In this document: one piece after another, positions 4,569 through 20,856 of the stretch
Numbering within the stretch: position 1 is the stretch's first letter
Layout of the letters: every line of letters starts with the position of its first letter
Assembly (NCBI RefSeq): GCF_017813335.1
Contig: NZ_JAGIYY010000010.1
Span: 62,001-126,000 of the forward strand
Direction of reading: 5' to 3'
Length of the DNA: 64,000 nt
DNA from: Tianweitania sediminis
Lineage (GTDB): Bacteria > Pseudomonadota > Alphaproteobacteria > Rhizobiales > Rhizobiaceae
Program-made: the position numbers and the translations under genes
The notes under the pieces: model-generated
Database searches by the model: none
What the model was told of the DNA's origin: nothing
What the model saw: only the letters and a program-made list of their open reading frames with translations

Positions 4569-5882
4569 CTAGGACACGGTGCCGTGGAGATCATAGGCTT
4601 CGGCGCGTTCCACCTTGGCAGTGACGATGTCGCCCACCCGCAAGGGTCGGCGCGCGCTCAGCTTAATGACGCCATCGATTTCCGGCGCGTCATACTTGGT
4701 GCGCCCGACTGCCGTCAGTCCATCAGATTGATCGATGATCACCGGCAAGCGCTTGCCGACCTTCTTCTGCAACTGGTTTGCCGAAATCTTCTGTTGCCGG
4801 GCCATGAAGCGGTGCCAGCGCGAACTTTTGACCTCTTCCGGCACTTGCGGCAAGCCGAGGTCGTTGGCGCGCGCACCCTTCACCGGTTCGTATTTGAAGC
4901 AGCCTGCGCGATCGATCTTCGCTTCGTCCAGCCATTGGAGCAGGAGCTCGAAATCCTCGTCCGTTTCACCCGGAAAGCCCACGATGAAGGTCGAGCGCAC
5001 CGCAAGATCCGGGCAGGTTTCCCGCCATTTGGTAATGCGGCCGGCTGTTTTCTCGGCATGAGCGGGGCGCTTCATGTTCTTCAGAACGGCCGGCGAGGCA
5101 TGCTGAAATGGGATGTCGAGGTAAGGCAGGATCTTGCCTTCCGCCATCAGCGGAATGACGTCATCGACATGCGGATAGGGATAAACGTAGTGCATGCGCA
5201 CCCAGATGCCCATCTCGCCGAGTTCACGCGCCAGGTCGATGAACTTGGCACGGACCTCGCGGTCGCCCAGCAGGCTTGTCTGGTATCTGAGGTCGATGCC
5301 GTAGGCGCTGGTATCTTGCGAGATCACCAGCAGTTCCTTGACGCCCGCCTTGGCGAGCTTTTCGGCTTCACGCAGCACATCGGCTGCCGGGCGCGAAACC
5401 AGATCCCCGCGCAAAGCCGGGATGATGCAAAAGGAACAGCGGTTCGAGCAGCCTTCGGATATCTTCAGGTAGGCGTAGTGGCGCGGAGTCAGCTTGATAC
5501 CCTGCGGCGGGACGAGGTCAACGAAGGGATCATGCACGGGCGGCGCAGCTTCATGCACCGCTGCCATGACGCTTTCATAGGCCTGCGGACCAGTAATCGC
5601 CAGAACGTTGGGGTGCCTTTGCCGGATCACCTCCGGCTCGGCGCCAAGGCAACCGGTGACGATCACGCGGCCGTTCTCGTTCATGGCCGAACCGATCGCG
5701 TTGAGCGACTCGTCACGCGCGGAGTCGAGGAAGCCGCATGTGTTCACCACCACGAGATCGGCGCCGTCATGCTTGCGCGAAATCTCATAACCCTCGGCGC
5801 GAAGGCGCGTGATGATCCTTTCGGAATCCACCAGGGCCTTGGGGCAGCCAAGGCTGACGAAGCTGACGCGCGGAGCGGACAT
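4569..5882 (-). CDS. rimO: Ribosomal protein S12 methylthiotransferase RimO
   Basis: A 437-residue radical-SAM enzyme that methylthiolates the conserved aspartate (Asp89 in E. coli numbering) of ribosomal protein uS12. The N-terminal UPF0004 domain opens with [18 protein letters not shown], where the cysteine is one of three ligands of the auxiliary cluster. The radical-SAM motif CSNRCSFC (CxxxCxxC) follows in [18 protein letters not shown], and a C-terminal TRAM domain ends the protein. The start is the ATG giving MSAPRVSF. The frame stays open for 26 more codons upstream, but that stretch is not family-like. The cyclase gene upstream ends 85 bp away on the same strand. Confidence 0.95.
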
Positions 5883-5967
5883 GAACGACTTTCGGAGGTG
5901 ATCGGAGAAGGGCGGGCCTTTACACGACAACAGGCGCCTTGTCACGCGCCACGCCGTCACAGGCGCG

Positions 5968-7812
5968 TCAGGCGACCAGTGCGGGGTCGGCTGCCGGTCG
6001 CATTTCAGCCAGGGTGTAGACCATCGTCGCCGCTGTTCGGCCCTTGACCAGGATAGGGCGAAGCGGCGCCAGCTCGATCTGTTCGGCTGCCGCCAAGGCG
6101 GTGGCTTCGCCGATCACGACCGGCACGCCGAGCTCCTTCGACGATCCCTCCAGCCGCGACGCTAGGTTCACCGCATCGCCCAGCGCGGAATAATCGAAGC
6201 GCTGCTCGGAGCCCATGTTTCCAACAACGCAAGCGCCCGTGTTGATGCCGATCCCCACATTCAGCACCGCTGCCGCTTCGCCGCGCTCTTGCGCTTCGCG
6301 GGCGAGCACAAGGTTGAGCTCGGCGACCGCCTGCACCATCTCGCGCGACGCCTTGACGGCGTGCAAGGCATGGTCGGGATCATCCAGCGGCGCATTCCAG
6401 AACGCCATCAGGCAGTCGCCGATGTATTTGTCGATCGTGCCGCCGTGAGCCATGACCACGTTGGACAGTGGTGTCAGCAGCCGGTTGATGAGGCGCGTCA
6501 AACGCTCCGGGTCGTCCTTCATCGCTTCGGCAATCGTGGTGAAACCGCGAATGTCGCAAAACAGCACCGTGATGGTCCGCAGTTCACCGCCGAGCTTCAG
6601 GAGATCGGGATTGCTGGCCAGCCGGTCCACCAAGGCAGGCGAAAGGTACTGCGAAAAGGCGCGCGTAATTCCTTTGCGCAATTGCCGTTCGGAGGCGTAG
6701 TCCAGGAGGCTCTGGCTGCCGGCAACAACCGTGAGCGCGAGGGCTGGAGCAAGCGGTGGCACGAAGATGCGGCCGAAGCGCATCGCCAGGAACGCGCCAA
6801 GGCCGATCACGAGCATCCCACCGGCGACGCCAAGCAGAGTGCGCCATCCAGTGCCGCGCCAAACAAGCCCCGCCGCCAGAAGCGCACCGCATATCCCGGT
6901 GGCGAACAGCAGCCAGGCTGGCGCTCGTGCGATCGCGTGCCCCTGCGCGAGGTTGTCATAGATGGTGGCCTGAATCTCTACGCCCGGCACCAGTCGGCCG
7001 GTTCGCAGCGTCGCCGACGTCGGATAAGCATCCGAGCCCTTCTGGTCGAGCGTCGGCGCGTTCTGCAGGCTCAAGCCCACCATCACAACGCGGTCGCGGA
7101 AGAAATTCGGCGGCAGGAAAGCGTCGGGGTCTAACGCCTGGTAGTAGGACACGGTGGTGAAGGTGCGCGCCGGGCCAAGCACCTGCATCATGCGTCCTAG
7201 CGCAGGGGGAACGGCAGTGCCGGCGGCCTCGAGCAATGCTCGCGCGAACCCGTCTTCGTAGCCCGGCAAGCGGCGCAAGATACCGTCGCCATCCGGGGAG
7301 ATCGATGCAATACCGGTGCGCGCGCCGGCTTCGGTAAACTGCGCCAGCGGCTCCACCCGCACGTGTTGCGTGCCATGCGGATCCTCAACGAAGGTTTCAT
7401 CGCCAGCCAGCACCACATCCGGCCCGACGTTAGCCGCAAGGACGGCATCGGACCGAATGTTGGAGGGTTCGGCGAAGATGATGTCGAGGCCGACCGCCTT
7501 GGCACCAGCTGCGCGCAGCTGGCTGACAAGCTGTCCGTGCAGATCCCGCGGCCATGGCCACTGCAGGCCGATTTCAGCGAGCGATGGCTCATCGATCGCA
7601 ACAATGATCGGGCTGGCTGCCGTTGGTCTCGGCGGGTCGATCGTCGACAGATAGTCGAAGGCCCGCGCTTCGAGGAGTTGCCATGGGGCGAGGTGGCCGA
7701 GCGCGCCCGCGAGAATGGCGGCTGCTGCCGCCAGCAGGAGGATGCCAAGTCTTCTGTTTTCGCGGTGGCGGCGGCGTGTCGACGGGCGCCACCACGGACG
7801 CCGCGGGTTCAT
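5968..7812 (-). CDS. CHASE2-domain class III adenylate cyclase, membrane bound
   Basis: A 614-residue sensor cyclase. After a basic N-terminus comes TM1 (about 22-44), then a periplasmic CHASE2 domain (about 45-295, with [13 protein letters not shown] and WPWPRD). Three hydrophobic segments (about 299-318, 324-345, 350-370) lead to a cytoplasmic cyclase domain (about 412-600). Catalytic residues are present: metal aspartates D420 (LFCDIRGF) and D466 (YIGDCLMA), adenine-contacting K462, and transition-state N549 and R553 ([10 protein letters not shown]). The second base-selecting position holds S542 where Asp or Thr is usual. The enzyme should make cAMP in response to a periplasmic or envelope signal. 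Its ATG overlaps the stop of the FecR-TPR-barrel gene (ATGA), so the two are probably co-translated. Confidence 0.9.
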
Positions 7813-10800
7813 CAGAATCGGACCTTCAGCGAGCCGACAAAGGTGCGGCCCCAGCCCGGTGTCCGCGGCGCTATCTCGAAATCCTCGTCCAGCAGGTTGT
7901 AGGCGGCAAGATCAAGCACGAGGCGCTTGTCGAACGGTTCCCAGGTCAGGAAAGCGTCCGTGCTCCAGTAGCCGTCGATCTCCGTTCCCGCTTCATCACC
8001 CGCGCGATCACCGACATAGGTCGCCGCGAGCGTGGCCTTGACGTTGCTCGGATGAACATAAGTAAGCCCCACGCGGCCGCTGTGCTCGGGGACGAACGCG
8101 AGAGGTTGGCCAAAGCCGACGCTGTCTGGATCCTCGTTTGAGCTGTCCGTGTAGGCGTAAGTGGCAAAGGCACCGAGACCACCACCGATCCAGACATTGG
8201 CAGTGGCGCTGACCCGATCGAGCCGACCTTCGGAAAGGCTGATTGTGTCAGCCGTTGCGGGAATGCCGATCGTCTGATCGTGAAACTCCTGATGCTGATA
8301 ATCAACGGCCGTGAACAAGCGCTGCGTCCACTGCGATTCCCAGCGCGTTGCGATCGTGTCCATATAGCCGTTCGGGGCCAAGCGTGCCTGGTTCGACTGC
8401 AAGCCCACCACGCCGATCGGCGCCAGAGTGGTTGAACTCAGAACCGAAGACTCCCGCAAAAAGCCGGCGCGGAGATATTGGCCTTCGAGGGGGGCCCACG
8501 CGATGCCGACACGCGGCTCGAGCCGCTCTTCGTCGACATCCGTTCCTGTGAACTCCCCTTGCAAGGACGTGCCGAACAATCCCGCTTCGACCTTCAGGTC
8601 TGGGGTGATCTCGTAAAGCGCATCAAGATAGGCGCGGCGCGTGTCCAGGTCCGTTTCGAATGTGGACACGTCCTCCTCAAGCGGGGGCACGGGAGGCACG
8701 AAGATCGCCGTCATTGTGTCGCCGCGGATTGTCCCGGCTTCCACGCCATAGCGGAGCGTAACGGCGCCAAGCTCCAGAGAGTGGTTGAAGGCCCCAATGT
8801 AAGTTTGCTGGCTGTTCTCGATTTCGGTACGCGGCAGAAGCGCGTCACCATCTGCGGTGATGAAAGGCGTATCAACCGACGAGTTTTCGTCGAGCAGGTT
8901 TGTCAGGAACCCGACTGTCGCAACATTGTGGTAGCCGAAGGTGTGCGCCCAAGCCACACCGGCGTTCGTGCTGCGTGCATCACCCGATTGCGGCACGCTT
9001 TCTCCGAAAAAAGGAACGAAGATCTCAGGCGTGATCACGCGGAGATCGAATTCGAAGTTCTGCGACGTGACGTAGCCAACCACCGTGTCGTTGAGTGTCG
9101 GCCGCGATGCGATGTAGCCGGTGCCGGTGATGGACCGGTCATCGAGACGATACTGTCCCGTTTCAACCGGATCGTCGCCGCGCAAGGAGCCGGCCTCAAG
9201 GCCCTCCACATTCACGTAAAGACTGGTCGGGATCGGGCCAGCGGCAAAGCCCTGGACCTCGAGCGAGGCTTGCCAGCCGACATCGCCATTATCCACTGTG
9301 ACGCCGCCACCCGCGAGCACCTCCAGGAACGGGTAAAGCAGCGCCGTCGGGCTTCCGGAAGGAGCCGCAAGCGATTGCGGGCTGAGCAGCAGGCCCTGCA
9401 GCAGCGATGACGCCGAGGTGTCGTTCGTTTCAGGTTCGGTGGGCACGTTGCCGAACCGGAGGTTGTTGATGAACGGGTTTACAGAACCCGCAAGACTCTG
9501 ATCGAAGTAGGACGAGCCGGAAAAGGGGTCGAAGACCGCATCGCCGTAGAAGCGTCCCCAAGCGTTGAGGTTGAGCAGCCGGAAAGCGTCGTTGAGAGTG
9601 GAGCCGGCATCACGGCTGGCGCTGAGCGCGGCGTAATCTCCGCCTCGGTCCCGCGTACGCTTGAGGGCATCCTGCGCCGCGATGATTGCATCGTCGGCGC
9701 GGAATTCATCCACGGCGATCGCCGTGCGCACGGATGCGATCACAGGATCGTTGCGGTCTAGCCGATCCGCGTTGTCGAGCGCTTGTTCCCCCGCAACAGG
9801 ATTGCCCGACTGGTAGTATGCCGCGGCCAGGAGAAGAAGGCTCTGGGCGGACGCCGGGTTGGCGGTGGTGGCGGCGAGCAGATCCTGTTGTGCTTTCGCG
9901 TGGTCGTTGGTTTGGAGGTAGTACCGACCGCGTGCGGCAAGCGCCGCATCGAGAGAAGGATCAAGCTGAAGCGCGATATCGATCTGCTCCTTGGCCTCCG
10001 CGAAGCGGTTTTCTTCCATGTAGATGAAGGCAAGATTGGTGCGCGTCAGGGGATCAGCCGCATCAAGCGCGATCGCCTTTTGCATGGAAGCCACGGACTC
10101 GCGAAGCGCCCCGCGCTGGGATTGGGCAAGCCCCAGCGTGTTCCAAAGCGTTGCAGAGCCGGGTGCAATCGAAACAGCGAGCTCGGCGTCACTCAGCGCC
10201 CCCTCGACATCGCCCTTGATGCCAGCTCTGTAGTAGGAGCGGGTTTCCAGCGCGAACGTGTCTTGAGGGTCAAGCGAAAGCGCGCGGGCGATCGCTTCTT
10301 CCGCTTGTTCGCGGTCGTCGATCAGCAAAGCAAATCGGGAACGGATCGCCGGCAGGGAAGATTCCTGCGGGTAGCGCTGTTCGGCTCTGCGAAGCACCTC
10401 GATGCCCGCCGGCAAACCCTCGATATAAGCCTTTGTGACGGCGTCGGCGATCGCGCCGCCCACGCCTACGATCCCGCCCGATGGTGGCTCTTCCTGCAGG
10501 TCGGGATTGGCGAGGGAGCGGGCGAAATATCCGCCAAACCGCGCCACGGATCGCCGCTCGGCGTCGAGGCCGGGCAGCGCCCGCTCGTAAAGCGCAGCGG
10601 CTTCGGCATAGCGTCCCGTCTGGTAAGCCGCATTGGCGCGAACAAGGGCGACGCGCGCTTGCTGCGCTCCGGTTAGTCCCCGCCGCTCTGCTTCGTCGGC
10701 GGCCGCCACGGCTGCTTCGGGGCCGTCGAATTGCAACCGGATTTCGGCCAGAGCGAGCCAATCTTCCGTGCTGCGCGCCGCGGGCGGGAGCGCCTCGATC

Positions 10801-11483
10801 CGTCCCCGCTCGGAGCCAAGAGCCGTGCCGGGAAGAGTGGTTGCCGGAAGGATGGTGTTGGTATCGCGGCCGCGCAGCGAGAAGTAGAACTGCATCTGCT
10901 CGCGGTCATCGGAGTCCGTCACAACGGTCTTCGAGGGTGCTTGACCGATCGTCGCCGTTGCAGCTTCGCCCGCCGTCAAGGACACCGAACCTTGCGGATT
11001 GGAGAAGTCGATTCGCCCCTCAAGGACGATCAGCGATGTGGTGTCCCCGTTCACCGACATCGTCCAATCGGTTCCGCGGATAGCGGCAGCGGCTGCCGGC
11101 GTGTCGATCGTCAAGCCTGCGCCGCCCCGTTCGGCGCGGGCCCACAGCGTCCCTGACTGAAGCTCGAAGGCTGAATCGCTGGTGGCGCCCACCTGCTTCA
11201 CCAGCAAGGTCGTGTTTCGACCAAGCCGCATCTGCGTGCGATCCGAAAACAGAACCGCAAGATTGCCGTTGGCGTTGGTGCGCAGGATGTCTCCAGCCAC
11301 CACGTCCTGATTGATGTCGACCGTGCGCCAGGCTGGGATTTCGATGAACTTCGCTTCTTCACCCGTTTTGCGGGCGATCACCGCGCCTGCGACACCCTGC
11401 GTGCGCGGAAGGATTTCAGCAGAAGCCGAGCCAGCAAGCATTGAGCCGGCAAGAAACAAGCCAACGAACGGCAAAGAACGCAT
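7812..11483 (-). CDS. FecR domain / TPR / C-terminal outer-membrane beta-barrel fusion protein
   Basis: A 1223-residue exported protein with three visible parts. Residues 1-22 are a signal peptide (GSASA before EILPR). Residues about 55-160 form a FecR-type periplasmic domain, with DINQDVVAGDILRTNANG and the typical TPAAAAAIRGTDW. Residues about 225-620 hold tetratricopeptide repeats (for example GSATLWNTLGLAQSQRGALR). From about 700 the chain becomes aromatic and alternating, and it ends FVGSLKVRF with a terminal Phe, as expected of a BAM-inserted barrel. No TonB box or plug is evident. FecR proteins usually partner ECF sigma/anti-sigma systems; here the translational partner is a CHASE2 cyclase instead. 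The upstream neighbour on the same strand is the cellulose operon. Function is inferred only from architecture. Confidence 0.82.
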   Translation of the reverse strand: MRSLPFVGLFLAGSMLAGSASAEILPRTQGVAGAVIARKTGEEAKFIEIPAWRTVDINQDVVAGDILRTNANGNLAVLFSDRTQMRLGRNTTLLVKQVGATSDSAFELQSGTLWARAERGGAGLTIDTPAAAAAIRGTDWTMSVNGDTTSLIVLEGRIDFSNPQGSVSLTAGEAATATIGQAPSKTVVTDSDDREQMQFYFSLRGRDTNTILPATTLPGTALGSERGRIEALPPAARSTEDWLALAEIRLQFDGPEAAVAAADEAERRGLTGAQQARVALVRANAAYQTGRYAEAAALYERALPGLDAERRSVARFGGYFARSLANPDLQEEPPSGGIVGVGGAIADAVTKAYIEGLPAGIEVLRRAEQRYPQESSLPAIRSRFALLIDDREQAEEAIARALSLDPQDTFALETRSYYRAGIKGDVEGALSDAELAVSIAPGSATLWNTLGLAQSQRGALRESVASMQKAIALDAADPLTRTNLAFIYMEENRFAEAKEQIDIALQLDPSLDAALAARGRYYLQTNDHAKAQQDLLAATTANPASAQSLLLLAAAYYQSGNPVAGEQALDNADRLDRNDPVIASVRTAIAVDEFRADDAIIAAQDALKRTRDRGGDYAALSASRDAGSTLNDAFRLLNLNAWGRFYGDAVFDPFSGSSYFDQSLAGSVNPFINNLRFGNVPTEPETNDTSASSLLQGLLLSPQSLAAPSGSPTALLYPFLEVLAGGGVTVDNGDVGWQASLEVQGFAAGPIPTSLYVNVEGLEAGSLRGDDPVETGQYRLDDRSITGTGYIASRPTLNDTVVGYVTSQNFEFDLRVITPEIFVPFFGESVPQSGDARSTNAGVAWAHTFGYHNVATVGFLTNLLDENSSVDTPFITADGDALLPRTEIENSQQTYIGAFNHSLELGAVTLRYGVEAGTIRGDTMTAIFVPPVPPLEEDVSTFETDLDTRRAYLDALYEITPDLKVEAGLFGTSLQGEFTGTDVDEERLEPRVGIAWAPLEGQYLRAGFLRESSVLSSTTLAPIGVVGLQSNQARLAPNGYMDTIATRWESQWTQRLFTAVDYQHQEFHDQTIGIPATADTISLSEGRLDRVSATANVWIGGGLGAFATYAYTDSSNEDPDSVGFGQPLAFVPEHSGRVGLTYVHPSNVKATLAATYVGDRAGDEAGTEIDGYWSTDAFLTWEPFDKRLVLDLAAYNLLDEDFEIAPRTPGWGRTFVGSLKVRF

Positions 11484-11589
11484 GAAAAGCCACCCCTCGG
11501 CCGACGCTCCCTCAAGCGTCCCCTTCGGCAGCCTTATTCTGCCGCAAGGTCACTTCGTCAATATCTTCTCATCAGCAGCAGCAGAAAAG

Positions 11590-11603
11590 AACAAGATCTT
11601 GTT
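11590..11603. promoter_or_regulatory. 14-bp perfect palindrome upstream of the FecR-barrel gene
   Basis: AACAAGATCTTGTT is self-complementary and lies in the 153-bp gap between the end of the cellulose TPR gene and the FecR-barrel start, 107-120 bp upstream of that start. A dimeric regulator site is plausible, but no regulator has been identified. Confidence 0.35.
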
Positions 11604-11636
11604 GCGGCAATCGCACACTGATCCTGGTGCAGCAGG

Positions 11637-14054
11637 TCAGGGACGTCCGCGGGTTGCGTTCACGGCAGCAAGCCCCTTCAGGCCTTCCCGGTTGCCTACG
11701 GCAGCAACTGCGCGAAAGACCCGCTCCGCGTCATTCAAGCGCTGCATATTCAGGTAAGCATATCCACGCAGAACCATGAGGTCGGTGCGCTCAGTTGCAA
11801 GGCGGGAACGCTGATCCAGAGCCAGAAGCGCCTCGTTATAGCGTTCCTGTTCGAAGAAGCCGGTGGCGCGCTGCGTCAGAATGTCGACTTCGAGCTGATG
11901 CGTGCGGTCGCTGGGTTGCGGTGCCTTGACCGCCGCAACGGCCGCGTCATCAACAAGGTTGCGGCGCAGATAAGCCAGCGACTGGCCATAGGCCGCGTCG
12001 CGTTGAACGGCAGCATTCCCGGTTTGCAGGGCGCGCTCGAACGCATCGGTCGCCTCAAGCGGCCGGTTGAGGTCCATCAGGCACCAGCCACGCGCCAAGG
12101 CGGCTTGGCCAGATAGCTGGTTGTAAAGATCCGTGGTGGCGCAGCCGCGTCCCTGCGGCGTTCGGGCTCTGGGTGCTGCGCTGCCCGATGCGGTTGCGGG
12201 CGATGCTGCGCGCGGTCCAGTTAGGGCGGCGGTATACGCCTGGGGAAGCGGCGCAGCGCCGCTCGCCTCGTGCGCTGGGGCTCCCGCAAATCGCTCCACC
12301 GCGGCCTGCGGCGTTTGCACGGTTACCGGCGGGGCCGATTGCAATTCCTGCGACGAAGAGGCCGTTTCGCCCGCGGGGGAGGCAACGCTCGAACGCGCCG
12401 GGCGTGCCGGCCTTTGGCGCCGGTCTTCGCCCAAGTCGGCGATCCGCTCGGAACGGCCGGCCCAGAGGCGCTGGATTTCCCGAACACCGGCGTGGTCGCC
12501 CAGAATATTACGGGTCAGCGCGAGACCATAAGCCGACGCTTCATCGTCAGGCTTCCAGCCGAGTGCTGTTTGAAACCACTGGCCGGCCGTTTGATGCTGG
12601 TTCAGGTCACGCGCATACCAGCCAAACTGCTGCGCCGCCGCAGCGTCCTTCACTTCTGCCGTTTCGCCCGCCATGCGCGTCAAAACAGCGGGATCGATGG
12701 CAACCCGCGGTTCCGTGGCAAGGTAGTTGGCGACCGCAGCCATGTAGACCCGGCCGATCTCGTCATTTTCATCACGCCACTTGTAAAGCACCTCTTCCGC
12801 TTCACCCGGCTTGTCCTGAGCAACGAGGGCAAGAGCCTGCCCCTGCGAGGCCTCCGCCGTATCCTCGCGCTCCCGCGCAGTGGAGAACCATCGCTGCGCG
12901 TCTTGCGGGCGATCCCGACGAAGATAATACCAGCCAAGAAGCCGCGCATCCGACGCAGTGCCCGCTTCGGGTTCTGCGGCGGCGGTGACTGCCTGCAGTT
13001 CGTCGTCCTGAACAGTTAGGGACGGATCTTCACCGGCATCCGCAACCGATTTGCGGGCGAGCGACAAACGGGCGGCCGCGAACTCATCGCTGCCCGGACG
13101 TGCGGTTGCCAAAAGTTCGTCGACCAAGGTGCGCGGCAGAAGCGGAATGGCTTTCTCAACGGTCGCAACGCGCTCTTCCGCATTGTCGCAGTTGTCGAGG
13201 ACGTATTTGTATGCGTCTCGGGCCCGCTCGGGCCGGTCTGTTTGCGCGAAGGCTTCTGCCACGCGCCACAAAACGTCGACTTCGCTGCAAGTCAGGAGGC
13301 TCGGTGTCTCGGAGGCCGTTCGAACCACGGTTTCGAACTGCTTCAGATCAGAGGCGTTCACCAGTCGCTCACGCGCTTCGGCGACTTCGACGCGGTCCAG
13401 CAGGTCTGTTGGAGTCGTCCAGGCGGGATCTGCTGCCTGCCGATCGGAAATGGCCTTGCGCAGTTCCGCATACCGGCCTTGGGCGTAGAGTTGCCACATC
13501 GCATCGAGTTGCGGATCGCTGACGGCTGGCACCGCGAGTGGATCCGCGGGCGGTGTCCAGTTGGGGTAAAGCGTGCGCAAACGCGCGATCTCGGCTTCCA
13601 GGCGGCGCTGGTCGCCTTCGCGAGCGAAGTAGCGCAAGGCTGTTTCGTCCACTTGCGGCTGGCTGACGTCGGGAGCGGTCGTTGCAGCGTTTTGCGCGGT
13701 TGCGGCGCTGTCCGCTTGTGCCAGCATCACAGGAGCCGGCGTAGCAGAGGTGGACGGGCGCTTTTGCTCGCCGAGAAAGGCGGAAAAGCGCTCCAGGTTT
13801 TGGGGGGCAGCCATGCGCAGCACCCTCCCAGAGCCCGCCGGCGGCGAGCCAGTCGTTCCCTCGGGCGTGCTGGATTGGCTTTGCGTCAGTTCAAACTTTG
13901 AAGCGGGCAGCGCGCTGGTTGTTGCCGCATCGAGCATGGCTCTTGCCGCCCTTTTCGGGGGCGCAGGAGCCGTCGGTGCCGGCTCCATCGCGCGCAGCAC
14001 GAGAGCCGTGCTCAGGCTTGTTGCAAGGGCCGTGGCGATCAGAGCGGTTTTCAT
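11637..14054 (-). CDS. Periplasmic TPR protein of the cellulose operon (BcsK-like)
   Basis: An 805-residue exported protein rich in tetratricopeptide-like helices (for example KQFGWYARDLNQHQTAGQWF-type units and LARGWCLMDLNRPLEATDAF). It has a long Ala/Pro/Thr-rich linker near residues 20-110 and another near 550-630. It lacks a C-terminal beta-barrel, so it is not a full BcsC. In rhizobial type III cellulose operons this slot holds a TPR protein called BcsK, and the same role is likely here: a periplasmic scaffold for glucan passage. The start is ATG 14054, because GGGAGG sits 6 bases upstream of it and directly abuts the alternative ATG at 14060. This start also gives the same ATGA overlap with bcsZ as the other junctions. 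Confidence 0.75.
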   Translation of the reverse strand: MKTALIATALATSLSTALVLRAMEPAPTAPAPPKRAARAMLDAATTSALPASKFELTQSQSSTPEGTTGSPPAGSGRVLRMAAPQNLERFSAFLGEQKRPSTSATPAPVMLAQADSAATAQNAATTAPDVSQPQVDETALRYFAREGDQRRLEAEIARLRTLYPNWTPPADPLAVPAVSDPQLDAMWQLYAQGRYAELRKAISDRQAADPAWTTPTDLLDRVEVAEARERLVNASDLKQFETVVRTASETPSLLTCSEVDVLWRVAEAFAQTDRPERARDAYKYVLDNCDNAEERVATVEKAIPLLPRTLVDELLATARPGSDEFAAARLSLARKSVADAGEDPSLTVQDDELQAVTAAAEPEAGTASDARLLGWYYLRRDRPQDAQRWFSTAREREDTAEASQGQALALVAQDKPGEAEEVLYKWRDENDEIGRVYMAAVANYLATEPRVAIDPAVLTRMAGETAEVKDAAAAQQFGWYARDLNQHQTAGQWFQTALGWKPDDEASAYGLALTRNILGDHAGVREIQRLWAGRSERIADLGEDRRQRPARPARSSVASPAGETASSSQELQSAPPVTVQTPQAAVERFAGAPAHEASGAAPLPQAYTAALTGPRAASPATASGSAAPRARTPQGRGCATTDLYNQLSGQAALARGWCLMDLNRPLEATDAFERALQTGNAAVQRDAAYGQSLAYLRRNLVDDAAVAAVKAPQPSDRTHQLEVDILTQRATGFFEQERYNEALLALDQRSRLATERTDLMVLRGYAYLNMQRLNDAERVFRAVAAVGNREGLKGLAAVNATRGRP

Positions 14055-15106
14055 GCGCATCCTCCCGGCAAGGCGCGCAAATGGGCAAGCGACAGGAGAT
14101 GCAGGGTCGATGGGTAGTAAGCGGTCGGCGTGAACTCGAGCAGATCCTCCGGCAGCGCCGTGCCATCCAGAACGCAGGCAACAAGCGCCGGGATAATGCG
14201 ATAGCCGGGATCAGTGAGGGTCGTGTGGGTGCGGCCGGTTTTGAGATCCACAAGGCTCAGGCCAGCGCCGCCCGCATCTTCCGCGAACGGTCGCAACAGG
14301 GCGGGATCGTCGATGCCGGCGCGCAGAAGATAGAGTGGAATGCGGATGGCGTTGTAGCCGAACTCGACTGCAAAACCCTCGGCGGGAGTCGGCCGCTGCT
14401 TCAGCGACACCCACTCTGGAGGAAGCTGACGCTCGCTGAAGCGAGCGTTCTTTACGAGAGCCTGACCGGCACGCGCAAGCGCCTTCCAGTCTGTTGCCTT
14501 GTCCTGGCTGGCAAAGCGGGTGAAGGCTTCGAACACCCAGTAGGACGGGTTTACCACCGGACCGTCAGGCCGATCGTCGCGGCCAAAGCCGTTGGCTGCC
14601 GGAAGAAGGGTGATGCTGCTGTTTAACGGGATCACGACCTCGCGTCCGATCGCGGCTATCAGCCCTTGCGCAGCCGCAGCCAAGTCTGCGCGCTGCCACG
14701 CCTCGCCGGCCAGAGACAAGGCGTAAGCGATCAGAACATCGCCGTCGCTGGCATTGTTGGGGTCCGATACATGTGGCGTTTTTCCCGGCTCCCACCGCCA
14801 CGCCGCCAAACCATCATCGCGCAGCAGAAGCTCTGTTTTCGTGAAAGACCAGATCTGGTCGAAATCCGGGGCGCTGTTTGCCAAAAAAGCCAGAAGCAGC
14901 CCATAGCCCTGTCCCTCGGAATGGCTGATTCCTCCATTGCCGGTGTCGACGACCCGGCCCGTGCCTTCGACGAAGCTGTTCTTGAAGGCGCTCCATTCCG
15001 CAGCGGTGATTGTGCCGGGCGTGACGGCGACGGGTTGTGCGTTGGCAGGAGACGCCATGATCATCATGAGCGCGCCGATAACAGCTGAAACGAGGCGGTT
15101 GGTCAT
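14051..15106 (-). CDS. bcsZ: Cellulose operon endoglucanase, glycoside hydrolase family 8 (BcsZ)
   Basis: A 351-residue periplasmic endo-beta-1,4-glucanase. Residues 1-23 are a signal peptide (SPANA before QPVAV). The GH8 acid is E64 in SHSEGQGYGL. A GH8-like block around the probable base D121 reads NASDGDVLIAYAL. In cellulose-producing bacteria this enzyme trims or disentangles nascent glucan and is needed for normal export and fibril quality. The ATG overlaps the bcsB stop (ATGA), and its own TGA overlaps the start of the TPR gene. A longer frame extends upstream inside bcsB and was not used, because the signal peptide begins exactly at the overlap. Confidence 0.92.
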   Translation of the reverse strand: MTNRLVSAVIGALMMIMASPANAQPVAVTPGTITAAEWSAFKNSFVEGTGRVVDTGNGGISHSEGQGYGLLLAFLANSAPDFDQIWSFTKTELLLRDDGLAAWRWEPGKTPHVSDPNNASDGDVLIAYALSLAGEAWQRADLAAAAQGLIAAIGREVVIPLNSSITLLPAANGFGRDDRPDGPVVNPSYWVFEAFTRFASQDKATDWKALARAGQALVKNARFSERQLPPEWVSLKQRPTPAEGFAVEFGYNAIRIPLYLLRAGIDDPALLRPFAEDAGGAGLSLVDLKTGRTHTTLTDPGYRIIPALVACVLDGTALPEDLLEFTPTAYYPSTLHLLSLAHLRALPGGCA

Positions 15107-17523
15107 CAGCGTCGCCCAAGATTCTGCAGCAACAGCAAAGTCGCCACGCCGAGGAGCATGCAAGCCACAAACAACGCGGCCGCGAAGGAAAGCACGTTGC
15201 CCGAAAGCCAGTTGGCGACCACCAGGCGCACATTGGCGAACGTCAGTGGACCGGTAGGGCGGAAATTGAAGGTGCTGACGGCGTGCGTCGAGGTAGATTG
15301 TTCTGTAGCGTTGAACAGCACCATTTCGCCGCCGACCCGGTTCCATTGGGGCGTTTGCGCGAGACCTTCAGCCCCCTCCCACAGCGCATCTGCTGTTGGG
15401 GCGGTGACCATGGTCCACACGGCTTCATCGTCCGGTGCCGGCCGCTGTGCGATCAGCAGGGACGTTTCAGCCGAAGGGGTGAATTGGTCAGCTCCGCGCG
15501 GCGTCAAGCGCAGCGATTCCAGGGTGATGTCGAAGTTCCGGTTCAGCCACTCCTGCAAGGAGCTGACTTGCCCGCGCCAGCCGGCATTGGACAGTTGATC
15601 GCGCCACTTTTCGAACGTCGCGGTGGTTTGCTGCAGATCGATTTCCGGCTGAGGCAAGGCTGTTTCGTCGCCCCAAGCCATGCGGCTTTGCGGCGCGATG
15701 CCGACCTGAGCCAGCACCTCAGGCTGGAACTGCGAAATCGGCCCGAAGAACAGGGCGTCGCGCTCGCCGACCATGGCCATCGAGCTGACCGGTTCGATGG
15801 CCAGGGGACGACCTGCCGCCACCGACATCTTGGCGAGAAAGGTGGCGGCTGTGGAAAGCGAAGCCGTTCCGCCGCCATTGATCACAACAGGCGTCGGCTG
15901 AGGCGAGCGGTTGTAAGGAAAGCCGGTGCCAGCGAGGCCCGCGAGGTTTGGAACCTGAGCCATGCGGGCGAAGTCAGGCATCTCGAAATTACTGGTGTCG
16001 AACAGAACGAAGCGGCCTCCGGCATCGGCCTCGCCCCCCGGCACGCAGGCTTCATCGGCCGCGGTGCGCAGATGCGCTTCAACGGCAATCGTGTTCGCGC
16101 CCGGCCGGAAGTGCCGCATGGTGACCGAAACCGGCAACTGCCGCAAAATAGCGCCGCCGCCGCTTGTGATCGGCAGCGTCGAAGCGATGTTGCCATTGAC
16201 ATAAACGTCGATGTGGCTGCCGGGCAGAACGTCGGCCGTGTACGCGGCATCCAGCAGGATCCGGGCTTCGCCATAATCGTTGGCGTAGAAGTCGGCTGGA
16301 ATGCCGATCAGGATCTCTGTTCTGAAGCGCCGCCCCGAAAACTCCTGCGTCGACGCGCCAAGTTTGGCGAAGCTTTGCTTGCCGCCGGAAAAGAAGATCG
16401 GTGCATTCGGATAATGCCAAGCCTGCGTTGAAAGAGCACTGCGCTGGGTGTCTATGGGGCGATCAACAGGTGTGGTGATGGTATCCACCGCTGTCTCGAT
16501 GGCCTGCCACGTCGGTCCGGTCACGACCATTGTTCCGGCGCCGGTTTCCGGGTCGTCCACGAAGCTGATCGTGGGGGAAACCGAAGCTCCGTTGGGCACC
16601 TCCGCCAGAACGCGCTGGACATCGGCCGGCAAGCCTACCACGATGTTCAAGCTGCCGGAGCCTGCTGGCCTGACCGCCTCTTGCGTGATCTGGACGCTCT
16701 GGTTCGGCATGTTGGCATAAACGGCCAAACCTTCTGCCAAACGTAAAACGGGCTTGGTTGCGGTGACAACATCAATGCCGGGCGCGATGATGTTGAAGCG
16801 GGTTTTCCCGGCCGCATCGACGCCGATGCTGGCAACATCCTCCAAACGCGTCATGCGGCGGGTGTCGCCGCGGAATGACAGATACGTCCGTTCCGGTGCG
16901 ATCTCCGTCCAGAGCTCGTAGGTGGATTCAATCGTGCAGTCTGTTCGATGGCGTTGCTGCGCTGCAATCGTGATCAAGTTCGACCCTTGCCGGACAAGGC
17001 CTGCAGGCAGCGGAACAGCGACTTCGCTGATGCCGTCGGGGCTTTTTACCGGGTTTTCCAGGATCGGAACGCCGTTTACGAAGACCCGAAGCACCGAGGT
17101 CTCGGGCGCGACAACGATTGCGTTCTGGTAAGCCACGTTCAGCGTGGTTGCGGCTTCCGCTTCTTCCGCGCTGAGTTGTATGGTCCACTGCTTGCTATCA
17201 ATTTCTCCGGTCAGTGACAGGCGGTCACTGGGAATGACGTATCGCCGTAACGTCGCATCGGTGGGGGTTCCCGAGGGGGCAGGCCTCGAGGCGATGGGCG
17301 CGGGTGAGGGCGCAACAGGGAGCTGCCCATTCGATGGGGCGGGGCTCGGAGCTGGTGCCGCTTTTGCAGCTGGTGCGGGAGTTGCAGGTTGCCGCGCTGG
17401 CGGTTCGGTCTTGACGGGAGGAGAGGCCTTCCTTTCGGGTGACATGTCGAATGGAGCCGGCTGGCTGGACACCAGTCCGGTGGAGGCAAGCAGCAATGCA
17501 AGCAGGGCGGCTGTTCGGGTCAT
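15106..17523 (-). CDS. bcsB: Cellulose synthase periplasmic subunit BcsB
   Basis: An 805-residue periplasmic, inner-membrane-anchored partner of BcsA that guides the glucan through the periplasm. Residues 1-20 are a signal peptide (LLALLLASTGLVSS). Residues about 25-80 are a Pro/Ala-rich linker. A long BcsB domain with paired carbohydrate-binding/ferredoxin-like modules follows (for example VLRVFVNGVPI and GSHIDVYVNGN). The C-terminal transmembrane helix (about 775-800) ends LLLLQNLGRR, the tail that docks to BcsA. The start is the ATG overlapping the bcsA stop (ATGA). The upstream extension of the open frame lies within bcsA. Confidence 0.93.
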   Translation of the reverse strand: MTRTAALLALLLASTGLVSSQPAPFDMSPERKASPPVKTEPPARQPATPAPAAKAAPAPSPAPSNGQLPVAPSPAPIASRPAPSGTPTDATLRRYVIPSDRLSLTGEIDSKQWTIQLSAEEAEAATTLNVAYQNAIVVAPETSVLRVFVNGVPILENPVKSPDGISEVAVPLPAGLVRQGSNLITIAAQQRHRTDCTIESTYELWTEIAPERTYLSFRGDTRRMTRLEDVASIGVDAAGKTRFNIIAPGIDVVTATKPVLRLAEGLAVYANMPNQSVQITQEAVRPAGSGSLNIVVGLPADVQRVLAEVPNGASVSPTISFVDDPETGAGTMVVTGPTWQAIETAVDTITTPVDRPIDTQRSALSTQAWHYPNAPIFFSGGKQSFAKLGASTQEFSGRRFRTEILIGIPADFYANDYGEARILLDAAYTADVLPGSHIDVYVNGNIASTLPITSGGGAILRQLPVSVTMRHFRPGANTIAVEAHLRTAADEACVPGGEADAGGRFVLFDTSNFEMPDFARMAQVPNLAGLAGTGFPYNRSPQPTPVVINGGGTASLSTAATFLAKMSVAAGRPLAIEPVSSMAMVGERDALFFGPISQFQPEVLAQVGIAPQSRMAWGDETALPQPEIDLQQTTATFEKWRDQLSNAGWRGQVSSLQEWLNRNFDITLESLRLTPRGADQFTPSAETSLLIAQRPAPDDEAVWTMVTAPTADALWEGAEGLAQTPQWNRVGGEMVLFNATEQSTSTHAVSTFNFRPTGPLTFANVRLVVANWLSGNVLSFAAALFVACMLLGVATLLLLQNLGRR

Positions 17524-19733
17524 TGATGGGCAACTGCTTGCACGTTGGGCGGGGTGAGCGCGGCTTCCTGCTCGCTGCGGGTTGAGCGGAACAGGTAAAC
17601 GAGGCCGCGATAGGTCTGGAAAAGCGCCAGTCCAAAGAACCGGACCGAGCCCCGCACCAGTCCAGGATTGCCGCGACGCGACATCTGGAACTGGGTCCAC
17701 TGGCTTGAATCGGCAAAGACGAGATCCGCGATCAGTTTCTGGTGCATGGGCGCAGCCGGTGAAAACAAGCAACCGACAGCGGTTGTTTCACCCAGCGTCC
17801 GCACGTTGCGCACGGTCATCGGCAGAACATGTTGCTCGGCATCGAAGTAGGTCTTGAAGCGAACTCCTGACACGTCGCTGATCTTGGCCGCCGACGCATC
17901 ATGGCCGTAAAGCACGATGCGCGCGCCATACACGTTGACGTCCTCGATGGTGCCGGGGAGCCAGCGATCCCCCATCTGGAAGTCGCAGCGACGGCTGACC
18001 TTGATGCGCCGCGTGATCTGCTTTTCGCCTCGCTCCGAAACGACGCCCAGCGCCGCGCCCGCCATGATGAGGTTCAACAGGTTCCAGCCGCCCACCACCA
18101 GCGTGACATCGGCTTTGTAGGGTTCGGTGATGACGCGGTAGATCGTGACGCCGACCGCCACGAGGAGCACGGCGAAAATGATAAAGAAAGGCGCGGCGAT
18201 CTCCGACAAGCGGCTTTTTGAGATCGACTCGTCCTTCGCCGTCACCTTGAAGGTCGGCTTGCTGGGATGAAGGATGACCGAAACCACGGCCGGCAGCAGG
18301 TGGACCGTTTGCACATATTCATAAAGCTCGGAAATCCAGGGCCAGCGGAATGCCCCGTAAAGGTAGTTCTGCATGATCAGGTTCACGATCATGTAGGTCA
18401 GCGTATAGGCCATGAACTCACCGCCTGATGCGGTGAAGATCTCAAGATCGAAGAAGAGGTAGAAAAGTGGCGCGACCAGAAAGATGGCCCGCGGAAACGG
18501 AAACAGCCAGAACAGCGTCGAGGACATGTAGCAAAGACGCTGCGGCAGGGAGAGGCCGCGCTTCAGGGGCGGGAAGCGATAGCGCAGGATCTGCATCATG
18601 CCCTGCGCCCAGCGGCTCCGCTGGCCGATAAAGCTTGCAAAAGTTGCTGGCTGAAGACCGGCAATCAAGGGGCGGTCGATGTAAACGGACTTCCAGCCCT
18701 TGGCGTGGAGCGCCAGGGCCGTTTCGCAGTCTTCCGTGATCGAGACACCGCTGAAGCCGCCGGTTTCAGCGAGGGCCTTCCGCGAAAGAACAGCCGCAGA
18801 CCCGCAAAAGAAGGATGCGTCCCACTTATCGAGCCCGCGCTGGATGATGCCGTAAAACATCTCATTTTCGGACGGCATCTTCTCAAAAGTCTGGAGGTTT
18901 CGCTCCAGGGGGTCTGGATTGAGGAAGAAATGCGGGGTTTGCACAAGGAAGAGCTTTGGCTCGTCCAGGAAGTAGCCCACCGTTTCCAGAAGGAAGTCGC
19001 GCGCCGGAGCGTGGTCGGCGTCGAAAACCGCAATCAGATCGCCCGTGGAGTGAGCGAGAGCGTTGTTGAGATTGCCGGCCTTGGCATGCTCGTTGCGTTC
19101 ACGGGTGATGTATGTTGCGCCCAGATCCTGGGCGAGCTGCTTCAGCTCGATGTGGCGCGCTTCGGCTGCGTGGGCATCCGCAACCTTGGCAGAGTTGCGC
19201 TTCTGCACGCTTCCGCCGTCGTCCAGCAGCCAAACCTTGAACTTGTCGGCGGGATAATCCATCGACACACAGGCCGCGATGGTCTTGGCAAGAAGATCGG
19301 CGTCTTCGTTGTAGGTGGGGATGAATACGTCGACGGTGGGAAGATTTTCGCGATTCTGGCCCTGTGCTTTCGCGCGCGACGGCTTGGATGGAAGCGGGAG
19401 CGCAACCACGAACAAGCTGATGGCCAGCATCATGACACTGTACATTTCAGCCATGTACAGCAGGAAGCCTGGAATGAAATCTTCAGGCTGGTTGAAGGGC
19501 GGCAGGGTGCTCGTGGTGCGCCAATACACATAGCGTAGAACGATCGCGGTGCCGAAGGCCAGCGAGATCAACCTCCAGATGCCTTCCGGCTTGATGGTCT
19601 TCAGCACCATCATGACCACGAGCACGAAAAGGCCCGCGATGAGTTGGGCCCGCAGGTTGATCGGGAGGGTGACGAGCGCCAGGACGATGATCGACATCAC
19701 TGCCCAGATCGCGATGATCCCTAACTTTCGCAT
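17520..19733 (-). CDS. bcsA: Cellulose synthase catalytic subunit BcsA (UDP-forming)
   Basis: A 737-residue membrane GT2 synthase that polymerises UDP-glucose to beta-1,4-glucan and threads it through its own channel. Active-site motifs are all present: DDGG (171-174), DAD (238-240), FFCGSAA (308-314), TED (333-335) and QRSRW (371-375). Four or so N-terminal and several post-GT helices flank the GT domain. A C-terminal PilZ-like domain (about 572-690) is recognisable but its c-di-GMP motifs are unusual: RRIKVSRR in place of RxxxR, and DVNVYG in place of DxSxxG. The start is the ATG giving MRKLGIIAIW, with GGAG about 9 bases upstream. bcsN lies 184 bp upstream, with a CtrA-like box in between. 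Confidence 0.95.
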   Translation of the reverse strand: MRKLGIIAIWAVMSIIVLALVTLPINLRAQLIAGLFVLVVMMVLKTIKPEGIWRLISLAFGTAIVLRYVYWRTTSTLPPFNQPEDFIPGFLLYMAEMYSVMMLAISLFVVALPLPSKPSRAKAQGQNRENLPTVDVFIPTYNEDADLLAKTIAACVSMDYPADKFKVWLLDDGGSVQKRNSAKVADAHAAEARHIELKQLAQDLGATYITRERNEHAKAGNLNNALAHSTGDLIAVFDADHAPARDFLLETVGYFLDEPKLFLVQTPHFFLNPDPLERNLQTFEKMPSENEMFYGIIQRGLDKWDASFFCGSAAVLSRKALAETGGFSGVSITEDCETALALHAKGWKSVYIDRPLIAGLQPATFASFIGQRSRWAQGMMQILRYRFPPLKRGLSLPQRLCYMSSTLFWLFPFPRAIFLVAPLFYLFFDLEIFTASGGEFMAYTLTYMIVNLIMQNYLYGAFRWPWISELYEYVQTVHLLPAVVSVILHPSKPTFKVTAKDESISKSRLSEIAAPFFIIFAVLLVAVGVTIYRVITEPYKADVTLVVGGWNLLNLIMAGAALGVVSERGEKQITRRIKVSRRCDFQMGDRWLPGTIEDVNVYGARIVLYGHDASAAKISDVSGVRFKTYFDAEQHVLPMTVRNVRTLGETTAVGCLFSPAAPMHQKLIADLVFADSSQWTQFQMSRRGNPGLVRGSVRFFGLALFQTYRGLVYLFRSTRSEQEAALTPPNVQAVAHQ

Positions 19734-19821
19734 CTGGGCTGATCTCCCACGGATCGCAGCTGGCGGAAGAGATTGCACGCAGTCCGTCCAGAGTCGGCTT
19801 TCCTGAACCAAAGAACATGTT

Positions 19822-19849
19822 CGGTTAATCGCCGGTTAAGATCGGTTAA
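19822..19849 (-). promoter_or_regulatory. CtrA-like site: three CGGTTAA repeats upstream of bcsA
   Basis: CGGTTAA occurs at 19822-19828, 19833-19839 and 19843-19849, that is at 11- and 10-bp steps, placing the copies on one DNA face. The first two contain a perfect TTAA-N7-TTAA (19825-19839), the CtrA consensus. Read toward bcsA, each repeat is TTAACCG. The array sits about 90-115 bp before the bcsA start. Confidence 0.55.
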
Positions 19850-19917
19850 CCGACGGGCTCAAAGCCGCTTCTGGTGTACCTTTCCTTACGGTGCAGGGTA
19901 CAAATCGCGGCGCGGCG

Positions 19918-20856
19918 TTAGTTTCCAGGCGGTGGGGGCACGATGGTGCTGGCGCCGACGATAGCTGCCGCGTCGGTCGGCGGTACCAGCGTGGTGCTGA
20001 CCGCGCCGGGCGGTGGCGGCGGAACAACCGGGCCGATCGGCTGCGGCAGCTGCGGCTCAGCCTGCCGGGGTGCCGGGCGGGCCGTTGGTCGGCGCGCCCT
20101 TTGTACGAGACGCGGGGGAGGCGGTGCCGGGGGCAGCACTGTTTCCACCTGTCCGCGCGCAGAAGGATACAGGTCGGGTCCCGGGGCGCCGAGGCCCTCC
20201 GGCGGCTTCGCAGCTTCGCCATACGGGTTCCATCCCGTTGCATCTACGAAGGCATTGACGGTGTAGCCATACATGAAGGCAAGCAGGTCCGCCTCGCTTG
20301 CATCCGCCTGGCAAAGTCGAACGCGAATGTCGATCGAGCCTCGGTCGTTCCACGAGTACTCACGCGACCGGATGCGCTGAAATCCGTAAAGGCAGGTTTC
20401 CGAGCCGCGGCGTCCCACGGCATAGCCGAATGGTCCGTAGCGGTTCTGGACGTAGAAGGGGCTCTTTTGCATCGGCAGCCCCGGAACAGCACGGCGGATG
20501 TCATTGTCGACCGAATGCAGCGGCAGGAACTCTTCGGGCATCCGGGTCTGGCCTTCGGAGGGCGCGCGGATTGGACCATAAAGCCGCACCCGAAGTGAGT
20601 TCTGCCCCGGGAGGCCGGACCTGGTCGCAAGCGCGATGTCCTGCTGGATGCCATTGGCATAGGTGCGCTGGGTTACGGCAACGATCGCGGGTCCACCGGG
20701 CGCCGGCAACACGTAGGCTTCATTCGCCGGAACGACCCGATCCAGCCCGGCCGACCCGACCTGCATGGAGCGGGTACATCCTGTCACCGCGAAAAGGGCA
20801 AGTGCTGCCAGCAAGCTGGCGCGGCGTCGATAGGTAAACAGGGCGCATGTCGGCAT
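19918..20856 (-). CDS. bcsN: Cellulose biosynthesis lipoprotein BcsN
   Basis: A 312-residue predicted lipoprotein. The N-terminal signal ends in the lipobox VTGC (Cys27). The middle part, including VVPANEAYVLPAPGGPAIVAV and a cysteine near residue 158, fits the BcsN family, which marks type III cellulose operons of Rhizobiales. The last 80 residues are proline/arginine-rich and low in complexity. The role of BcsN is not settled in the family; it is an accessory for cellulose secretion or fibril assembly. It is first in the operon, 184 bp before bcsA, and divergent from the CAP-domain gene, with which it shares a 175-bp intergenic region. Confidence 0.85.
   Translation of the reverse strand: MPTCALFTYRRRASLLAALALFAVTGCTRSMQVGSAGLDRVVPANEAYVLPAPGGPAIVAVTQRTYANGIQQDIALATRSGLPGQNSLRVRLYGPIRAPSEGQTRMPEEFLPLHSVDNDIRRAVPGLPMQKSPFYVQNRYGPFGYAVGRRGSETCLYGFQRIRSREYSWNDRGSIDIRVRLCQADASEADLLAFMYGYTVNAFVDATGWNPYGEAAKPPEGLGAPGPDLYPSARGQVETVLPPAPPPPRLVQRARRPTARPAPRQAEPQLPQPIGPVVPPPPPGAVSTTLVPPTDAAAIVGASTIVPPPPGN

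Follow-up and report, generated by a model that had tools for sequence, protein, structure and literature searches.

How might a signal that arrives at the outer membrane be turned into cyclic AMP (cAMP) in the cytoplasm? The question is raised by two adjoining genes on the reverse strand of a 64,000-nucleotide stretch of Tianweitania sediminis DNA (contig NZ_JAGIYY010000010.1, positions 62,001 to 126,000; hereafter the window), the first coding for a protein with FecR, TPR and beta-barrel parts and the second for a CHASE2 adenylate cyclase. A preliminary description, made from the letters alone, had proposed that the FecR/TPR region contacts CHASE2 across the periplasm and thereby controls cAMP synthesis. 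Our analysis indicates that the two genes very probably encode a receptor–cyclase pair of the NsrA–CyaK type, in which an outer-membrane signal is relayed through CHASE2 to cAMP. The proposed route is sound, yet it has already been published: as far as the available text of PMC7529298 goes, a FecR/TPR barrel of the outer membrane that signals to a CHASE2 cyclase is reported for Sinorhizobium meliloti, where perception of signal 1 in a cAMP-dependent reporter assay needs outer-membrane NsrA and inner-membrane CyaK, and the accessible part of PMC13001267 agrees in brief with this account. What the present analysis adds to that route is a general linkage of FecR with CHASE2, a predicted plugless barrel of the TonB-receptor type, and a genome in which paralogues were not detected.

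Identity with the S. meliloti pair was established by several comparisons. In a protein search of plasmid records, the barrel protein matched S. meliloti NsrA on pSymB with 49% identity (98% coverage of the barrel protein), and the cyclase matched CyaK, which adjoins nsrA on pSymB, with 59% identity (93% coverage of the cyclase). The annotated record CP140934 names these genes nsrA and cyaK and has them in the same order and with the same one-base overlap as the window. In a tree of 54 CHASE2 cyclases, made by a quick method with Shimodaira–Hasegawa-like approximate likelihood ratio test (SH-aLRT) values and no bootstrap, after three wrong-frame open reading frames (ORFs) out of 42 (L151, L162 and L179) had been dropped, all 15 NsrA-paired cyclases fell on one side of a branch with an SH-aLRT value of 99. 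The window cyclase belonged to a subgroup with S. meliloti and Rhizobium members, and the NsrA-paired branch excluded both the CyaD1-like and the CyaD2-like protein of S. meliloti 4H41. NsrA (SMb20775) and CyaK (SMb20776) share with the window pair their domain layout, gene order, one-nucleotide overlap and cyclase group. In its sequence, gene order and junction, and in the placement of its cyclase in the tree, the window pair is a clear relative of NsrA–CyaK. It differs from the S. meliloti pair in adjoining a cellulose operon, in holding the only class III cyclase, CHASE2 and FecR matches of its genome, and in that no Clr orthologue was found in that genome.

The preliminary description had the barrel-gene stop and the cyclase start overlapping as ATGA. 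The overlap exists, but its form is a one-nucleotide TGATG and not a four-nucleotide ATGA: in the letters TTC TGATG AAC, the stop TGA (7814-7812) comes first and is followed by the start ATG (7812-7810). A Shine-Dalgarno-like AAGG can be read 10 bases 5' of the cyclase ATG. Scanning for promoters and terminators yielded no signal stronger than in shuffled sequences, and the G+C content of nsrA–cyaK, overall (GC) and at third codon positions (GC3), was no different from that of the neighbouring genes. Conservation of gene order, on which the proposal had been made to depend, was then examined in two sets of relatives with four genomes in common. The first set comprised the best 80 of at least 216 confirmed loci, which lean to Rhizobiaceae and have flanks of up to 10 kb, often limited by contig ends; the second comprised 13 sampled relatives from the order Rhizobiales, the window being left out. 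A cyclase gene lay directly downstream of nsrA in 79 of the 80 loci and in 13/13 order relatives, and the one-base overlap was found in 72/80 and 8/13, respectively, as well as in S. meliloti. The proposal, for which rare adjacency in relatives would have been a refutation, thus withstood this check.

The domain composition first described for the barrel protein, namely a FecR domain, TPRs and a C-terminal barrel ending in Phe, was borne out. Pfam matched FecR and TPR families (Table 1), the chain ends in KVRF, and the putative signal peptide, judged by eye, is MRSLPFVGLFLAGSMLAGSASA. An AlphaFold2 model of residues 24–1223 (1200 residues, 53 sequences; model residue 1 corresponds to protein residue 24) had a mean predicted local distance difference test (pLDDT) score of 87 and a predicted template modelling (pTM) score of 0.79. 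It contains a beta domain, which is larger than the Pfam FecR match and surrounds it, then the TPR superhelix, and finally a barrel in which 22 strands were counted. The top Foldseek matches were the TonB-dependent receptors FoxA, PiuA and FecA (E values between 2e-18 and 7e-18; identity near 14%). VIA-align gave Z scores of 19–21 and a root-mean-square deviation of 3–4 over 417–502 residues for the receptor rows against the barrel, and TPR proteins matched the TPR region best. NCBIfam TonB-receptor matches covered only the last 90–140 residues, at E 1e-6 and weaker and far under the cut-offs. As had been noted from the letters, a plug was not evident: neither Plug nor TonB_dep_Rec was matched by Pfam at E values up to 0.1, and the model makes the segment that precedes the barrel helical. 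On the model, NsrA may thus be read as a barrel of the FecA type in which a TPR arm, with a FecR domain at its end, has taken the place of the plug.

When the strands were read alternately, the outer barrel half was found to contain 54 acidic and 16 basic residues and the inner half 16 and 12. NsrA of S. meliloti 4H41 is similarly acidic in its outer half (48 acidic, 19 basic). The available text of PMC7529298 describes many acidic residues in the outer loops of S. meliloti NsrA and names the ribosomal protein uL2 as a candidate signal. The predicted acidic outer half is consistent with the electrostatic hypothesis published for the ligand, although the net charge of the outer half varies widely in the family (−4 to −47 in 53 rows, taken without a control barrel).

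The second protein has, as proposed, both a CHASE2 domain and an intact class III cyclase domain, matched by Pfam CHASE2 and Guanylate_cyc. Residues D420, K462, D466, D540, N549 and R553, which we take to have catalytic roles, are invariant in 10/10 aligned members, and the best solved relatives are adenylate cyclases. Hydropathy peaks at residues 24–42, 299–317, 326–344 and 346–364 were obtained by a simple scan without a topology predictor. The window cyclase had 46 matches among solved sequences, not one of which covers the CHASE2 part. The C-terminus of the window CyaK (5968–6020) is about 35–60 residues short of nine other aligned members and is without their tail.

These features suggest how the pair could work. 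NsrA would sit in the outer membrane as a plugless barrel resembling TonB receptors, and its outer face would receive a ligand from outside, perhaps a basic protein of the sort suggested for S. meliloti. The tethered periplasmic TPR and FecR domains could take up the state of the barrel and hand it on, by contact, to the periplasmic CHASE2 of CyaK. Acting through the membrane segments, CHASE2 may in turn raise or lower the amount of cAMP that the cytoplasmic cyclase makes. Translational coupling would keep the amounts of NsrA and CyaK balanced. For the window pair, the analysis establishes homology, conserved linkage, predicted architecture and conserved cyclase residues, whereas how FecR meets CHASE2, what the ligand is, in which direction it acts and which effector reads the cAMP are inferred.

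A contact through FecR bears on CHASE2 more widely, and we extended the comparison to 40 other CHASE2 loci (L141–L180), hand-picked from the strongest matches listed and spread over the families of the order rather than drawn at random. The excised ORFs had a Pfam CHASE2 match in 37 and a cyclase domain in 36 of the 40, L151, L162 and L179 having been cut in the wrong frame. A FecR gene, sought with our own hidden Markov model iterated on the same loci, was found within about 2 kb of 31/40 CHASE2 genes, and Pfam confirmed 31/31; all four arrangements of the two genes occurred, the up- and downstream labels of a few overlapping ORFs being unreliable. In the order survey, CHASE2 was present in 203/297 genomes, and FecR occurred in 180 of these 203, compared with 20 of the 94 genomes without CHASE2 (Fisher p about 1e-30, a value that ignores phylogeny; lists of 203 and 200 entries, copied by hand and checked). 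In S. meliloti 4H41, three CHASE2 and three FecR matches form three neighbouring pairs. FecR adjoins both CyaD-type genes of this strain (L184, L185). FecR–CHASE2 therefore looks like a general partnership, and since the FecR domain is the recurring partner of CHASE2, these data support FecR as the part in contact with CHASE2.

The same data bear on whether NsrA is mainly a transporter or porin, with CyaK sensing, through CHASE2, a small ligand of its own that enters through NsrA, and the two proteins merely co-expressed. The barrel is of the TonB-receptor type, which is a transporter fold, and the FecR neighbours of CHASE2 elsewhere in the order come in many sizes, often too small for a large barrel. 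However, with no Plug or TonB_dep_Rec match in Pfam, gated uptake machinery is not evident, what recurs beside CHASE2 is the FecR domain, and nsrA and cyaK are strictly adjacent and overlap. We regard the transporter explanation as unlikely and continue with the receptor–cyclase reading.

Comparable gene groups have been described in other bacteria. According to the available text of PMC9239204, CHASE2 adenylate cyclases of Campylobacterota cluster with FecR outer-membrane and TPR proteins. There too, a FecR protein of the outer membrane accompanies a CHASE2 cyclase; the cluster is likened here by description rather than by sequence, and, as presented in that text, it differs in having four genes, including a phosphodiesterase and a separate TPR protein. 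In a Burkholderia contaminans operon of LysM-FecR and CHASE2 histidine kinase genes, a FecR-domain protein adjoins a CHASE2 sensor, as here, with an output of histidine kinase and response regulator; a barrel is unmentioned in the available text (PMC5192318), which in 2016 described what CHASE2 recognises as unknown. The linkage reported here offers a testable partner for the widespread CHASE2 domain. In its broadest form, FecR would be a general, sigma-independent periplasmic partner of CHASE2 that feeds envelope signals to cAMP or histidine kinase outputs in many bacteria, NsrA being the form whose FecR has become joined to a plugless TonB-receptor barrel, which lets the signal originate outside the cell; a Na/H exchanger with a cyclic-nucleotide-binding domain, encoded beside the cyclase in some relatives, could then be a direct target of cAMP. 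For this broad form we hold the balance to be even.

FecR proteins are better known from another route. FecA–FecR–FecI is the iron citrate signalling system, and a classical function of this kind, in which the FecR domain acts on an extracytoplasmic function (ECF) sigma factor with the cyclase uninvolved, would account for the presence of a FecR domain. The window pair resembles that system in combining a FecR domain with a FecA-type barrel, FecA being among the top structure matches. It is unlike it in carrying FecR and the barrel on one protein, in giving no plug match, and in having a cyclase as the adjoining partner in the inner membrane. At E 0.001 the window genome has one CHASE2, one FecR and one class III cyclase match, the last counted with PF00211 only, and all three lie in nsrA–cyaK. 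The sole FecR match is therefore part of an outer-membrane barrel protein, with no stand-alone inner-membrane FecR, and the gene adjoining nsrA in relatives is a cyclase gene. The neighbours of the window pair are bcs genes and a rimO-like gene, no search for sigma factors having been made. Taken together, we consider the classical route scarcely credible for this locus. For the receptor–cyclase reading, the single set of matches means that outer-membrane control of cAMP can be assessed in this genome without detected paralogues. Two genus mates gave no class III cyclase match.

Several observations weigh against reading the locus as an NsrA–CyaK pair. In the survey of 297 order genomes (two best NsrA candidates per genome scored, E 1e-20), NsrA was found in only 14, the window included; nsrA–cyaK was not found in the two genus mates searched; and at L104 (Shinella sp. 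WSJ-2), nsrA at 9764–13609 has no cyaK match in the 3.6 kb of downstream sequence available. Nine of the 40 sampled CHASE2 genes, some of them at contig ends, are without a nearby FecR gene. Contact of FecR/TPR with CHASE2 is here a prediction. Finally, no Clr orthologue was found in the window genome, its best long matches being 20–27% identical (27% over 190 residues), and a scan of the window for the Clr DNA motif gave one site (36005), far from the pair and near chance, with 0.29 expected.

The Clr comparison covered the CRP-type proteins of the window genome and a set of 16 genomes. As reference we used the cyclic nucleotide monophosphate (cNMP)-binding helix-turn-helix protein that S. 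meliloti 4H41 encodes next to its CyaD1-like gene, taken as Clr because the S. meliloti Clr regulon paper, in its available part, places clr near cyaD1. In the 13 other sampled NsrA genomes, Clr matches reached 50% in one and 36% in two. Clr was set aside as the output in the window genome on the low-identity matches and the near-chance scan. Because no Clr orthologue was found, and only a lone, distant, near-chance site, the S. meliloti output does not seem to carry over, and the cAMP target in the window genome is unlikely to be Clr. The genome has 11 cNMP matches, all in frames of at most 334 residues, with no exchanger–cNMP fusion among them. Neither of the two genus mates has a close match to one of its CRP-type proteins (G000:C5:18188), but a pattern scan did not find a Clr-like GE...RS motif in this protein; it may be regarded as a weak candidate effector.

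In relatives, another candidate adjoins the pair. An exchanger gene lies convergent to cyaK and just downstream of it in 7/13 order relatives (L022, L023, L025, L026, L028, L029 and L030). Pfam matched Na_H_Exchanger and cNMP_binding in 3/3 of these neighbours scanned, the other four being assigned by position and likeness, and the best solved matches of one were SOS1 and NHE exchangers. An S4-like voltage-sensor pattern between the exchanger and cNMP domains was not found in the five exchanger ORFs checked. The exchanger beside cyaK is thus a possible direct target of cAMP in these relatives.

Table 1. Features of the nsrA–cyaK locus and its flanks in the window
Feature	Position	Strand	Evidence
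nsrA-like gene, 1223 residues: signal peptide (by eye), FecR, TPR superhelix, C-terminal 22-strand barrel	7812..11483	-	ORF, Pfam, model, homology
FecR domain, residues 66-158 of the barrel protein	11010..11288	-	PF04773, E 9e-15; strands in model
TPR superhelix, about residues 206-673	9465..10868	-	TPR families (Pfam); helices at model residues 183-650
22-strand barrel of TonB-dependent-receptor type, residues 719-1223, without plug match	7815..9329	-	model, Foldseek, weak NCBIfam
TGATG junction: nsrA stop and cyaK start with one common base	7810..7814	-	sequence
cyaK-like gene, 614-residue CHASE2 adenylate cyclase	5968..7812	-	Pfam, homology, tree
CHASE2 domain, preceded by one membrane segment near the N-terminus and followed by about three more	6880..7716	-	PF05226, E 1e-39; hydropathy
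Class III cyclase domain, conserved Asp, Lys, Asn, Arg	6022..6579	-	PF00211, E 5e-22; alignment
Gene after cyaK, between the pair and the acyltransferase gene	4569-5960	-	ORF
bcsN-bcsA-bcsB-bcsZ-TPR row	11637-20856	-	

Directly upstream of the pair lies a row of cellulose genes, bcsN-bcsA-bcsB-bcsZ followed by a TPR gene, with nsrA about 150 bp downstream on the same strand. BcsC-type exporters combine TPRs with a barrel, and among seven proteins scanned with Pfam and NCBIfam up to E 0.1 no BcsC-family match was found, so that the barrel protein could be the missing cellulose exporter of this operon, a BcsC substitute, with the cyclase as a bystander. Two genus mates, however, keep the bcsN-A-B-Z-TPR row without nsrA–cyaK; no bcs match was found near nsrA in the 80 other loci, within their available flanks, or in the 13 order relatives; and the barrel is predicted to be of the 22-strand TonB-receptor type. 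The exporter role was rejected on the genus mates' rows without nsrA, and on all this evidence we rate it very improbable. nsrA–cyaK, which we continue to read as a receptor–cyclase pair, has no conserved association with the cellulose operon beside it.

The gene that follows cyaK we take, from the look of its sequence, to be rimO-like, and beyond it in the window lies an acyltransferase gene. In one genus mate (G298), the TPR gene of the bcs row is followed directly by a homologue of this acyltransferase gene. Because that row runs straight into the acyltransferase, nsrA, cyaK and the rimO-like gene form an extra block in the window genome, which suggests a gain in the window lineage or a loss in others.

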